Shown here: piece after piece, positions 1-4,808 of the stretch | Layout: each line of letters opens with the position of its first letter | Numbering within the stretch: position 1 is the stretch's first letter | Assembly: GCA_013334485.1 (NCBI GenBank) | Contig: JAAXXL010000003.1 | Location: 1-64,000, forward strand | From: Chlorobiaceae bacterium | GTDB lineage: Bacteria; Bacteroidota; Chlorobiia; Chlorobiales; Chlorobiaceae | Direction: 5' to 3' | Length of the DNA stretch: 64,000 nucleotides | Notes under the pieces: generated by a model | Told to the model about the DNA's origin: nothing | The model's database searches: none | What the model saw: the letters and a program-made list of their open reading frames with translations, nothing else | Translations under genes and position numbers: made by a program

Positions 1-342
1 CTGGGGAACCGGAAAATCCGCAGGATAACAATCGAGCGACTCTACGATATTTAAAACTGATACCGTCACATCACCCAGATGCGGCTCAATCCAGGAGCCG
101 GCTATCGGCCGCTTTTTACGCTCAACTCCATCCGGAAGCTGAAAATGGAGCATTTCAAAAAAAACAGTGCTGTAGCGACGCTCCTTGTCAAAGGTGATAA
201 TAACAGCGGAGTCAAACTCAAAGACCAGACGAAGCTTGTCTGTTACCGTCCGGAACAACTCCTGGGGATCGCGGATCGAACCGACCGCATCGCTTATGTA
301 CTGCATAAGCATATGCGCCTCATGTGAAGAAGAGATACTCAT
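1..342 (-). CDS. GAF-domain protein, probable sigma-54 activator (partial)
   Basis: An open frame runs leftward from an ATG at 342-340 off the window edge (114 codons seen). The residues, including SDAVGSIRDPQELFRTVTDK and FEFDSAVIITFD, resemble the N-terminal GAF sensor domain common in FhlA/NtrC-type enhancer-binding proteins; this is family knowledge from memory. The AAA+ and Fis domains that would prove the class lie outside the window. It is divergent from an efflux operon whose promoter region holds a -24/-12 element and two inverted repeats, which supports a sigma-54 activator. Other GAF signalling proteins remain possible. No clear ribosome-binding site precedes the start. Confidence 0.65.
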   Translation of the reverse strand, partial: MSISSSHEAHMLMQYISDAVGSIRDPQELFRTVTDKLRLVFEFDSAVIITFDKERRYSTVFFEMLHFQLPDGVERKKRPIAGSWIEPHLGDVTVSVLNIVESLDCYPADFPVPQ

Positions 343-369
343 AGAGAGGGAAGTAAACCGTTTATTCTT

Positions 370-409
370 AAATTATCAGAAAACAAGATACAGAATATTC
401 TGATAATTT
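370..409. repeat. 12-bp inverted repeat with nested palindrome
   Basis: AAATTATCAGAA (370-381) and TTCTGATAATTT (398-409) are perfect inverted arms. The 12-bp palindrome CAGAATATTCTG (391-402) is nested in the same stretch. It lies between the GAF gene and tolC, about 105-145 bp upstream of the inferred efflux start site. It is a candidate operator or upstream activator site and probably overlaps the GAF gene's own promoter. Confidence 0.5.
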
Positions 410-443
410 CGGAACGCCCAAACAAACGAAACAAACTAAACTA

Positions 444-468
444 CTTTATATAAATGATTTATATAAAG
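444..468. repeat. 10-bp perfect inverted repeat upstream of efflux operon
   Basis: CTTTATATAA (444-453) and TTATATAAAG (459-468) are perfect arms around a 5-base spacer. The element lies 20 bp upstream of the -24/-12 promoter. It may be a regulator or IHF-type site, or simply AT-rich structure. Confidence 0.45.
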
Positions 469-487
469 CCCCCCTTCGTTTCTCTAC

Positions 488-503
488 TGGCATAGGAATT
501 GCG
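488..503 (+). promoter_or_regulatory. sigma-54 (-24/-12) promoter of the efflux operon
   Basis: TGGCAT (488-493), five bases, then TTGCG (499-503) matches TGGCAY-N5-TTGCN with the invariant GG and GC at exact spacing. The predicted start is near 514, upstream of the short ORF at 530 and tolC at 571. The adjacent GAF-domain gene is the natural activator candidate. Confidence 0.6.
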
Positions 504-529
504 ACATTTAACGAAGGAAAGAGGCAACT

Positions 530-571
530 ATGGGCAAAAGCATAAAGGCGCCCAAAATCATCAGAAAATAA
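530..571 (+). CDS. 13-codon leader ORF overlapping tolC start
   Basis: ATG at 530 is preceded by a purine-rich GGAAAGAGG. It encodes the basic peptide MGKSIKAPKIIRK and ends at a TAA (569-571) whose last A is the first base of the tolC ATG (TAATG). This geometry permits translational coupling. It may be a leader peptide or chance; nothing else supports it. Confidence 0.3.
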   Translation: MGKSIKAPKIIRK

Positions 572-1896
572 TGAAGAGAATACTGGCAAAAACCGGCGTA
601 TGGACTTTAGCTGCACTGATGCTTTCAGCGCCATGTCGGACCGCCCTGGCAGGAGAATCACCCGAGGGAGTGCTGACACTTGAAAAGAGCATCCGTCTTG
701 TTCGCGAAAACAACCCGGCACTGAAAGCGGCAGCAGAGGAGATCACTGCTGCAGAAGCTCGGGTCACCAAAAGCAAAAGCGCATGGTACCCTCAGATAAC
801 CGCAAGTGCGGGTTACACCTATATTGATCCGGTCTCGGAGATGAGTTTTGGCAGCACCCCTCCGATCAAATTCATGCCCAACAACAACTACGACGCCAAA
901 GTCACCGCAAGAGCAACAATTTTCGATTTCGGGAAGAGAGGAGAGGGCGTCAAGCTCGCTCTCAGTGGAAAAAAATCGACTGAGCACACACTTGAACTGA
1001 CCCGAAGGGAGCTCACCTTTCAAACGGTTCAACTATTTTATGGCGCTCTTTTTCTCCATGAAAGCATACGGGTACAACAGAAGGAAATTGGTGCGCTCAA
1101 CAAGGCTCTCGAATTCTCGACAAAACGATACAAGGCCGGATCGGCCACACGGTTTGATCTTCTCTCCACCGAAGTACGTATAGCGGCAGCACGAAGCAGA
1201 GCGATTGATCTTGATCATGCCCTTCGCCGTAACGAACTTGCCCTTCGGCGTCTGACCGGTATTGCGGATAACTTGCCGTTGCAGCTCCATGGCTCATTTT
1301 CAACCACGCCGTCAGCATCTGCAGAACCCGGAATAGTCACACAGGCTTTGCAGCAAAGGCTTGAGGTGAAACTTGCAGTTGAAAACGAACTTGTAGCGCG
1401 CCAAAAGCGATCCATCGCCATAAAAGAGGGCTTGCCGGTCATTACCGGAAGTGCCTCCTACGGCAGAACCAATGGCTACCAGCCCGATATTGAGGTGATG
1501 CGTAATAACATTGCAGCGGGGGTTCATCTTGAAATACCTCTCTTTACAGGCTTTCGCAACAGTGCTGATCGGCAGGAAACGACGGCCCTCATGCATGCCG
1601 CCGCCGAGCGAAGAGTTGATACTGAGCAGCAGGTAAAAAACGAAGTCGAAGAGATGCTTGACGGCGTTCAGACCTCCTCAAAAAAACTGCTGACGACCGA
1701 TGCCCAGGTTAATCAGGCAAAACTCGCAGCCGAGCATGCAAGAGCTCGCTACGAAAACGGCATGGCAACAACACTTGATCTGCTCGATACTGAATCGTCG
1801 CTTTCCCAGGCTGAACTTGCACGATTGCAGGCAACCTATGAATATGTGATGAGTAACTATGCGCTAAAACGCGCAACCGGGGAGGTTTTCTGGTAA
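571..1896 (+). CDS. tolC: TolC-family outer-membrane efflux protein
   Basis: This is the outer-membrane channel of a tripartite efflux system (441 aa). The chosen start gives MKRILAKTGVWTLAALMLS, a signal peptide with probable cleavage after ALA near residue 26. A longer in-frame start at 499 would bury the signal and is less likely. Two OEP repeats follow, rich in Ala/Gln helices, for example the segments around LEFSTKRYKAGSATRFDLL and ARARYENGMATTLDLLDTE, the usual repeated TolC signature. Length is typical. It is first in an operon with an EmrA-like adaptor 60 bp downstream and an EmrB-like pump. The substrate cannot be told from the sequence. Confidence 0.9.
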   Translation: MKRILAKTGVWTLAALMLSAPCRTALAGESPEGVLTLEKSIRLVRENNPALKAAAEEITAAEARVTKSKSAWYPQITASAGYTYIDPVSEMSFGSTPPIKFMPNNNYDAKVTARATIFDFGKRGEGVKLALSGKKSTEHTLELTRRELTFQTVQLFYGALFLHESIRVQQKEIGALNKALEFSTKRYKAGSATRFDLLSTEVRIAAARSRAIDLDHALRRNELALRRLTGIADNLPLQLHGSFSTTPSASAEPGIVTQALQQRLEVKLAVENELVARQKRSIAIKEGLPVITGSASYGRTNGYQPDIEVMRNNIAAGVHLEIPLFTGFRNSADRQETTALMHAAAERRVDTEQQVKNEVEEMLDGVQTSSKKLLTTDAQVNQAKLAAEHARARYENGMATTLDLLDTESSLSQAELARLQATYEYVMSNYALKRATGEVFW

Positions 1897-1956
1897 CATG
1901 ACTCGTCCCCTGAAAAAATCAGCTAAAAACCCATTGAACAACCTGAACTGACAACA

Positions 1957-2931
1957 ATGCCAGAAAACATCACTCCCGAAAAAGCACCACTGAAAACATC
2001 AAAGCCGGTGCGGATTATTATTATCGTGCTTGCCATTGCTACCGCAGCAATCTGGACAGGCAAGACGCTCTACCACTCATATCTCTATGTTGAAACCGAT
2101 AACGCCCAGATTGAGGGCGATGTTTATCCGGTCATTTCACGTATTCCAGGAAAAGTTCAAGATGTTCTTGCTGACGATAACCGGGTAGTAAAAAAAGGGG
2201 AGCCCCTTGTCAGGCTTGACGCTGCTGATTATGAGGTTCGTCGTGACATAGCCTCAGCGGCACTGCAAAATGCCAGGGCCTCCGTCTTTGCGGCAGAAGC
2301 AAATGCGAATGCTGCCGCAGCAACAGAAAGAAAGCTTGACGCTGATCTCAAGCGCAACAGCAGCCTCCGGCAACAGGATGTTGTATCACAAGCGGAATTC
2401 GATGCTGTCCGTGCAGGAGCCGATGCATCTAAAGCCCTCTATTCCGCAGCAACAAGCCAGCAAAGTGCCGCCGTCGCCCAGCTCAAAATGCGTGAGGCTG
2501 AACTGCGCAATGCTGAGCTTCAGTTATCATACACCACCATAACCGCACCAGCAGCAGGTCATATATCAAGAAAAAGTGTTCAGCCCGGCCAGTTCGTGGC
2601 TCCCGGTCAGCAACTGATTGCGATTGTCGGAAGCCGCGACCTCTGGGTAGTGGCAAATTTCAAGGAGACTCAGCTCAAAAACATAAAGCCAGGGCTTCCG
2701 GTCATTATTCATGTTGACGCATACCCTGACCGGGAGTTCAAGGGGAAAATCGACTCCATTTCATCAGGCACCGGCGCAAAGTTCTCCATGCTGCCTCCTG
2801 ATAACGCCAGCGGAAACTTCATCAAGGTTGCACAACGTGTCCCGGTGAAAATTGTTTTTACCGAGAATCCCGGTAAAGAGCAGAAGCTTGCTGCCGGTAT
2901 GAATGTGATAGTTGAGGTGAGGGTGAAATAG
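1957..2931 (+). CDS. emrA: HlyD/EmrA-family membrane fusion protein
   Basis: This is the periplasmic adaptor linking the inner-membrane pump to TolC (324 aa). One N-terminal membrane segment lies at about residues 18-40. The lipoyl half-motif follows (TDNAQIEGDVYPVISRIPG), then an Ala-rich coiled-coil hairpin (about 90-190), the second lipoyl half (TAPAAGHISRKSVQPGQFV) and a beta-barrel containing the conserved VVANFKETQL. YVETDNAQ is typical of EmrA/VceA adaptors that serve DHA2-type MFS pumps, matching the emrB-like gene that follows after a repeat-filled 250-bp gap. Confidence 0.9.
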   Translation: MPENITPEKAPLKTSKPVRIIIIVLAIATAAIWTGKTLYHSYLYVETDNAQIEGDVYPVISRIPGKVQDVLADDNRVVKKGEPLVRLDAADYEVRRDIASAALQNARASVFAAEANANAAAATERKLDADLKRNSSLRQQDVVSQAEFDAVRAGADASKALYSAATSQQSAAVAQLKMREAELRNAELQLSYTTITAPAAGHISRKSVQPGQFVAPGQQLIAIVGSRDLWVVANFKETQLKNIKPGLPVIIHVDAYPDREFKGKIDSISSGTGAKFSMLPPDNASGNFIKVAQRVPVKIVFTENPGKEQKLAAGMNVIVEVRVK

Positions 2932-3130
2932 TGCTGAGTAACGAGTGCTGAGCGCTGAGTGAAGATTTTGAACCACGAAACACACGAAATGAAGAGGAAG
3001 AAATTGGACTGAGTTGACAAGAAGGGAAGAGAAAAGTGCCGGGTGCTTAGCGATGGGTTCAAGATTTCCTCTTCGTCGCTGTTGTCCTTGAAGTCCTTTT
3101 AGTCCTTTGCTAATAGCCTGAAGTAACTTT
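2932..3130. repeat. Mosaic of dispersed repeats between emrA and emrB
   Basis: The gap contains GTGCTGAGTAACGA and GTGCTGAGCGCTGA (about 2931-2960), the TTTTGAACCACGAAACACAC type at 2965-3000, and three 9-bp units gtccttgaa/gtcctttta/gtcctttgc (3084-3110). The second type recurs on the other strand near 45671-45713. No gene is credible here; an antisense frame over it has repeat composition. Confidence 0.6.
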
Positions 3131-3185
3131 GGATTAAAGAAAACGATTTTTGAAGCACGAAATAAACAAAGAAGAGAGTGGAGTG

Positions 3186-4808
3186 ATGGCCGAACCAAAT
3201 AGTAACGGAAAGAGCGCCTCTGTAGCGCCAATGCTGCCGAATCCGGCCCACACCTATGAGACCGGGTTGAAGAAAGTGATCATAACCCTGACGGTTATCG
3301 TCTCGGCAATGCTTGAGCTGATCGACACAACCATTGTCAACGTAGCGCTCACCCAGATCAGCGGCAACCTCGGCGCAAGTATAGAGGATGTGGCCTGGGT
3401 TGTCACCAGCTATGCTATCGCCAATGTTATCGTCATTCCTCTTTCAGGCTTTTTGGGAAACCTTCTCGGACGGCGAAACTACTATATCGGCTCTATACTG
3501 CTGTTTACGGCAGCTTCGCTGCTTTGCGGCATGGCGCCAAACATCTGGGCTCTGGTCTTTTTCCGCTTTCTACAGGGACTCGGAGGAGGGGCGCTCCTTC
3601 CGACCTCCCAGGCAATACTCTACGAAACCTACCGCCCGGAAGAGAGGGGCAAAGCAACAGGAATATTCTCCATGGGACTCGTACTCGGCCCCACAATAGG
3701 ACCGCTACTGGGTGGGTATCTTGTTGACTACTTCTCGTGGGAGTGGTGCTTCTTCGTGAACATTCCGGTCGGCCTGCTGGCAGCATGGTCATCCTACACC
3801 TTCCTAAAGGAACCGAAGGTCAAGCATACCATCTCAAATATCGACTGGGCGGGAATAGGGCTTCTGACGGTCGGCATCGGATCGCTACAATTCGTTCTTG
3901 AACGGGGAGAGTCAAAAGACTGGTTTGAAACCCCCTATATCACCTTGTTTACCATTATCGCCGTGGTTGCGCTCCTTGCTTTTATCTGGTGGGAACTGCA
4001 CACCGAAGAGCCCGCCGTTGACCTGCGAGTGCTGACCAGGAGTAAAAACCTTGCTATTGCTGCTGTGCTCACCTTTGTCGTGGGTTACGGACTCTACGGA
4101 TCACTCTTTGTCTTTCCCGTCTTTGTGCAGCGCCTGCTTGGTTTTACCGCACTGCTTACTGGAACTGTGCTCTTTCCAAGTGCACTGGTAACCGGTATCA
4201 TCGCACTCCCGCTCGGCATCGCACTGCAGCGGGGAGCTTCAGCTAAAATCCTCATGGCGGTCGGCATGAGCGCCTTTGTCATTTTCTGCTGGGAACTCGG
4301 CCAGCAGACCATGCAGTCGGGAGCGGAAAACTTTTTCTGGATACTGCTCCTGCGCGGTGTAGCTCTTGGATTTATTTTTATTCCAGTGACCATGCTTGCT
4401 GTTGCGGGCCTTCACGGCAAAGACATCGGCCAGGCAACCGGACTCAACAACATGGTACGACAGCTCGGAGGTTCGTTCGGCATAGCCCTGACTAACACCT
4501 ATATCGTCAAACGGGTAGCAGCACACCGGGTGGAGCTCCTGAGCCACCTATCACCCTTCGACCCTGCAGCAGTAGCAAGAGTTGATGCTGTAAAGCAGGT
4601 TGCCGCCATGAAAGCCGGGGGTTCACCAGCCGAATCGGAGGTGATCGCACTGAAAGCACTTGAGGGAACCGTGACCGTGCAAAGCCATCATCTTGCCTAT
4701 ATGGATGCTTTCATGCTGATAGCGCTGCTCTTTGCGCTTGCACTGCCGCTGCTTTTTTTCATTAAAATCAACAAAAGCGAAAAAGTCGACCTCTCATCAG
4801 CCCACTGA
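3186..4808 (+). CDS. emrB: EmrB/QacA-type MFS drug transporter (DHA2)
   Basis: This is an inner-membrane proton-driven efflux pump of the 14-TM DHA2 family (540 aa from ATG 3186). That start is preceded by the purine-rich GAGAGTGGAGTG; an upstream in-frame ATG at 3150 is less likely. Diagnostic motifs are LIDTTIVNVAL in TM1, GFLGNLLGRRNYY (motif A) and RFLQGLGGGALLPTSQAIL (motif B). Motif C, GLVLGPTIGPLLGGYL, marks an antiporter. With tolC and emrA it forms a full tripartite exporter. The inserted repeats before it may weaken coupling to emrA. Confidence 0.9.
   Translation: MAEPNSNGKSASVAPMLPNPAHTYETGLKKVIITLTVIVSAMLELIDTTIVNVALTQISGNLGASIEDVAWVVTSYAIANVIVIPLSGFLGNLLGRRNYYIGSILLFTAASLLCGMAPNIWALVFFRFLQGLGGGALLPTSQAILYETYRPEERGKATGIFSMGLVLGPTIGPLLGGYLVDYFSWEWCFFVNIPVGLLAAWSSYTFLKEPKVKHTISNIDWAGIGLLTVGIGSLQFVLERGESKDWFETPYITLFTIIAVVALLAFIWWELHTEEPAVDLRVLTRSKNLAIAAVLTFVVGYGLYGSLFVFPVFVQRLLGFTALLTGTVLFPSALVTGIIALPLGIALQRGASAKILMAVGMSAFVIFCWELGQQTMQSGAENFFWILLLRGVALGFIFIPVTMLAVAGLHGKDIGQATGLNNMVRQLGGSFGIALTNTYIVKRVAAHRVELLSHLSPFDPAAVARVDAVKQVAAMKAGGSPAESEVIALKALEGTVTVQSHHLAYMDAFMLIALLFALALPLLFFIKINKSEKVDLSSAH

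Follow-up and report, generated by a model that had tools for sequence, protein, structure and literature searches.

A predicted sigma-54 switch with a dedicated GAF-domain activator for a TolC-EmrA-EmrB efflux operon in green sulfur bacteria

How is a three-part efflux operon controlled when the gene standing back to back with it appears to encode a sensor? This question is raised by the left end of a 64,000-nucleotide stretch of DNA (the window) from a 2.59-Mb Chlorobium genome. Control of efflux pumps is usually credited to local repressors or to regulators of the global stress response, and a sigma-54 promoter is the tightest bacterial kind, silent in the absence of its activator. We consider it highly probable that the locus is a dedicated sigma-54 switch with one target. 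The protein architecture, operators, promoter, single target, synteny, spacing, and single rpoN were read directly from the sequence, and binding, activation, looping, and autoregulation are predicted from established bEBP biology (bEBP, bacterial sigma-54 enhancer-binding protein). The literature search returned nothing describing sigma-54 control of this efflux module, and a 2025 survey of sigma-54 regulons mentions the Chlorobiia for nitrogen fixation alone (PMC12316311). The features of the locus are listed in Table 1.

Table 1. Coordinates of the genes and predicted regulatory elements at the left end of the window
Feature	Position	Strand	Remarks
bEBP gene, 5' part (114 codons)	1..342	-	start codon at 342; remainder beyond contig end
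Dyad 1 of predicted activator site, TTCTTAAATTATCAGAA	365..381	+	17 bp; TTC...GAA columns invariant
Dyad 2 of predicted activator site, TTCTGATAATTTCGGAA	398..414	+	17 bp; 33 bp from dyad 1
Predicted upstream activating sequence, whole 50 bp	365..414	+	both dyads; model match E 2.2e-12
Spacer palindrome, 12-bp perfect arms, 1-nt loop	444..468	.	private to source genome
Predicted sigma-54 -24/-12 promoter, TGGCATAGGAATTGCG	488..503	+	GG 489-490, GC 501-502
tolC-type outer-membrane channel gene (OEP)	571..1896	+	Pfam, NCBIfam
usp remnant, 17 codons, MTRPLKKSAKNPLNNLN*	1898..1951	+	universal-stress-protein gene, internally deleted
emrA-type periplasmic adaptor gene	1957..2931	+	Pfam, NCBIfam
emrB-type DHA2 MFS transporter gene	3186..4808	+	TIGR00711 over cut-off

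The divergent GAF gene is incomplete because its contig (G000:C35) begins at window base 1, inside the gene; cut in this way by the assembly, its remainder can be read in relatives only. The 114 sequenced codons specify a GAF domain 96% identical to that of the closest orthologue (G045) and 92% identical to that of C. ferrooxidans (L163/G056). From these codons, a first-pass annotation had proposed a sensor of the FhlA/NtrC type, and the full-length orthologues bear this out, being proteins of approximately 700 aa with the architecture GAF-GAF, sigma-54 AAA+, and Fis-type HTH (HTH_8). In the orthologue L044, the Sigma54_activat domain (PF00158, 2.2e-73) spans residues 382-548 and is accompanied by an AAA+ lid and two GAF stretches, with the Fis-type C-terminal HTH (PF02954) at residues 650-692. 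Of the three marks by which the annotation had suggested recognizing such a protein, the AAA+ and Fis-type domains are present, while the exact GAFTGA motif is replaced by GSFTGA. The lack of an AAA+ domain, named by the annotation as a refutation, is thus not what the orthologues show. Of 69 orthologues searched for exact strings, every one has GSFTGA; the Walker A motif was recovered in 62 of them and the Walker B motif in 64. A GAFTGA loop with Ser at position 2 is listed as functional, occurring in the validated activator LevR (PMC3162934). To judge by these domains, the divergent gene is a bacterial sigma-54 enhancer-binding protein (bEBP) gene, with the AAA+ integrity of the window copy inferred from its relatives. 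It was found in 73 of 81 family genomes, and at each of the 45 orthologous loci scored it stands divergent from tolC-emrA-emrB; rpoN is present in the source genome as a single copy (G000:C89). One orthologue (G070:C99:776-1921) contains one stop codon within the region that the sensor half matches.

Enterobacterial FhlA resembles the bEBP in length (692 aa), AAA+ domain, and HTH, and the FhlA model NF011958 is the best NCBIfam match, though at 405 bits against a cut-off of 830 and with an alignment covering bEBP residues 326-697 only. In addition, a distant homologue retrieves annotated FhlA proteins through its GAF-GAF half, at 22-23% identity (E ~1e-10). Because the model score is so far under its cut-off, we regard the bEBP as FhlA-like in layout and reject its identification as FhlA. 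The targets differ as well, being hyc or fdhF for FhlA and, as predicted here, an efflux operon for the bEBP, and nothing points to formate as what the bEBP senses.

A structure of part of the sensor has been deposited. PDB 3K2N is described as a sigma-54-dependent regulator domain from Chlorobium tepidum, and its aligned chain agrees with the L077/G014 protein, which identifies it by sequence as the first of the two GAF domains in the C. tepidum bEBP orthologue. It is also the top structural match of the modelled sensor half (mean pLDDT, 83). The entry is a structure alone, and the literature search found no publication giving its ligand, target, or function. At approximately 10-15% identity, the model further resembles tandem GAF domains from phosphodiesterases, from phytochromes, and from a cyanobacterial cyclase; these likenesses do not identify a ligand, and the naming of one from the predicted structure was rejected. 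On genetic linkage alone, our plain guess is that the signal is a pump substrate or a related toxic compound.

On the other side of the intergenic region, Pfam and NCBIfam agree with the earlier reading of a tolC-emrA-emrB exporter operon: an OEP channel, an EmrA-type adaptor, and a DHA2/EmrB transporter lie in one operon, as in an EmrAB-TolC three-part MFS pump. The OEP and TIGR00711 matches are over their cut-offs, and the best match of emrA, TIGR00998, is below its own. The likeness to E. coli emrAB-tolC lies in the three-part MFS design, the EmrA, EmrB, and TolC subfamily models all matching. In E. coli, emrAB is served by the MarR-type repressor EmrR and a sigma-70 promoter; here, in contrast, tolC is inside the operon and the predicted control is by sigma-54 plus the bEBP.

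The ancestral gene order, as reconstructed from relatives, is tolC-usp-emrA-emrB, with usp intact between tolC and emrA in most of them and deleted in the source genome. The gap between emrA and emrB, almost zero in close relatives, is 254 bp in the window (2932-3185), and this gap together with the loss of usp might lower emrB expression in the source genome. Could the module, then, be decaying in this genome? The deleted usp, the widened gap, and a private palindrome between the activator site and the promoter would fit such a course, which is compatible with the switch proposed for the family as a whole. Yet all three genes of the pump are intact, as are the two dyads and the promoter, and six other named loci that lack usp retain emrB, and we consider decay improbable, if worth keeping in mind. 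The sequence CCACGAAACACACGAAA lies within the gap and occurs once in the window.

The evidence for the sigma-54 promoter comes from comparison. When TGGCAYRN4TTGCW was sought with one mismatch allowed, TGGCATAGGAATTGCG was one of 2 sites in 64 kb, and the window holds two copies of the strict form TGGCAY-N5-TTGC versus 0.55 per shuffle; since chance comes this close, the single sequence is weak evidence and conservation decides. Across 71 intergenic regions (the window included, and one of them from the paralogue L086), 70 carry a -24/-12 element facing tolC no more than 110 bp from the activator site versus ~0.4 after dinucleotide shuffling, and 46 carry the strict form versus 0.04. The GG-N10-GC spacing and its TGGCA and TTGC context are conserved in the orthologues, and at the 71st locus (L113) the element lies farther away, behind an insertion. 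The element that the first-pass annotation had placed at 488-503 has thus held up, and its loss in orthologues, which the annotation named as a refutation, is not what the comparison shows. Its remark that sigma-54 control would be unusual for green sulfur bacteria has not, since such control appears, from these promoters, to be their normal state. On this conservation, we take the -24/-12 element to be a real, conserved sigma-54 promoter sequence, with transcription inferred to start at about 513-514. A whole phototroph family and some relatives would keep an efflux pump on a predicted sigma-54 promoter.

Upstream of the promoter, two inverted repeats had been described, at 370-409 and 444-468. 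The first is present, but as part of a larger conserved unit that is a tandem operator pair and not a single palindrome: two dyads of the form TTCTGA-N5-TCAGAA, with a further half-site, CAGAATA, immediately 5' of dyad 2 and with TTC...GAA, GAA..TTC, and GA as invariant columns across the 50-bp block. The second repeat is real (0 of 2,000 shuffles gave an equal one) but is not conserved; in the other 70 spacers perfect arms do not exceed 7 bp. Being found in the source genome only, it was rejected as a component of the module.

A sequence model of the 50-bp block (R1), used for genome-wide site searches, recovers the site in the source genome with the next distinct match at E 0.5, and matches at E < 5e-9 in 70 of 81 family genomes, each time beside the bEBP gene. 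No convincing additional target sites were found in the source genome or its relatives, except for two at an ABC-pump paralogue (G019:C25). The site therefore appears essentially once per genome, with a single target. Since the promoter and the paired site are kept in nearly all relatives, the neighbouring gene almost certainly encodes a dedicated sensor that switches the pump on in response to some chemical. Between the bEBP start codon and the beginning of the activator site lie approximately 22 bp, so that its occupation must affect the bEBP gene and probably also limits bEBP expression. This proximity could equally suit a bEBP that is mainly autoregulatory or serves another regulon, with the pump mostly constitutive. 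However, the strong site occurs once per genome and a sigma-54 promoter points toward tolC in almost all orthologues, which leaves this reading with the least credence of those weighed here.

The distance from the site centre to the -12 element falls into five classes, 81-82, 91-93, 103-104, 111-115, and 122-127 bp, with in-between distances absent and the classes approximately one helical turn (~10.5 bp) apart. Random draws matched the periodicity of the 17 distinct distances in 0 of 5,000 trials; the classes did not arise independently of one another, and because the loci are related the effective sample is approximately 8 events, not 17 values, with at least 8 class changes on the bEBP tree. 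Such one-turn classes are as expected of a DNA-looping activator, and with their 33-bp spacing the paired dyads keep the constant helical face of an upstream activating sequence. The spacing data would thereby form a natural record of enhancer-promoter helical phasing across the whole family. At L113, an insertion of approximately 90 bp with GC-rich repeats puts the site at 214 bp, off the helical series.

The dyads do resemble repressor operators in shape, and most known emrAB-type pumps are under local repressors, so one may ask whether they are instead the operator of an unrelated repressor (TetR/MarR), with the -24/-12 element a passenger and the pump run by de-repression as in E. coli emrAB. 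It is a full bEBP gene that adjoins the site, though, and the DNA separating it from tolC holds no repressor gene; the site and the bEBP co-occur in genomes. Moreover, the site lies approximately 80-127 bp upstream of the promoter and not over it, with helical spacing, and the sigma-54 element is itself conserved. We therefore judge the repressor reading very unlikely. Enhancer sites of the NorR, PspF, and NtrC type are among the closest known systems. There, as here, tandem dyads precede a -24/-12 promoter, at 80-150 bp, and the activator gene is often the divergent neighbour. The present site differs from them in dyad sequence (TTCTGA-N5-TCAGAA) and in having a pump as its only target.

Under the sigma-54 switch that we favour, the two N-terminal GAF domains of the bEBP would sense a small molecule, and bEBP dimers would bind both dyads and assemble as an AAA+ oligomer. 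DNA looping would then deliver this oligomer to the sigma-54 RNA polymerase held at the promoter, where the GSFTGA loop, with ATP hydrolysis, would open the DNA and switch on tolC-(usp)-emrA-emrB. Binding, looping, and ATP-driven opening are predicted here from what is established for bEBPs in general. With target, operator, and promoter defined to the base and the C. tepidum sensor domain crystallised, it becomes possible to test directly which compounds green sulfur bacteria detect and pump out.

Of the genomes negative for the bEBP or the site (G005, G035, G036, G058, and others), nine were checked. Six of these have no emrB match, and in the remaining three the contigs stop within or just upstream of tolC; no complete locus without a bEBP was thus found.

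Beyond the family, the sensor half was otherwise found in four of 296 genomes of the phylum, adjoining tolC-emrB in G211 and G136, tolC plus ABC genes in G296, and tolC plus RND genes in G204, with these pump classes assigned from gene order and N-terminal sequences and without a family search. In the G211 family, 68 of 150 sampled genomes carry the sensor half, and tolC is divergent from it at all 30 loci examined; in the G204 family, tolC is present in G521 and absent in G484. Overall, outside-family activators are divergent from tolC-type exporters (MFS, ABC, or RND) at every one of the 30 loci from one family and at three of four other loci examined, and rpoN was detected in all eight such genomes tested. 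In a second family, 29 loci show similar dyads and a TGGCAC element separated by 144.5-148 bp, which is two turns past 124, with a noncanonical -12 element (TNGG versus TTGC). The tolC-facing element of this second family (L266-L295) reads TTGGCAC-N5-TNGG, conserved in sequence and spacing, with GG in place of GC at -12.

We lean toward an old bEBP subfamily for three-part efflux, spread over Chlorobiales and other orders of the phylum, in which the activator and paired dyads are kept and the pump is swapped (MFS, ABC, or RND), with usp joining in green sulfur bacteria and the GAF domains sensing the expelled compounds. If true, the subfamily would consist of sensors of expelled compounds, with the pump exchanged behind one conserved activator. 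Paralogous tandem-GAF bEBPs (L085, L086, and L088) adjoin adaptor-ABC exporters, usually with usp, and have -24/-12-like elements of their own; L086 shows two consecutive site-plus-promoter sets. Some green sulfur paralogues are divergent from usp, adaptor, and ABC genes, with tolC present or absent, and at a few of these loci the pump is gone and usp remains.
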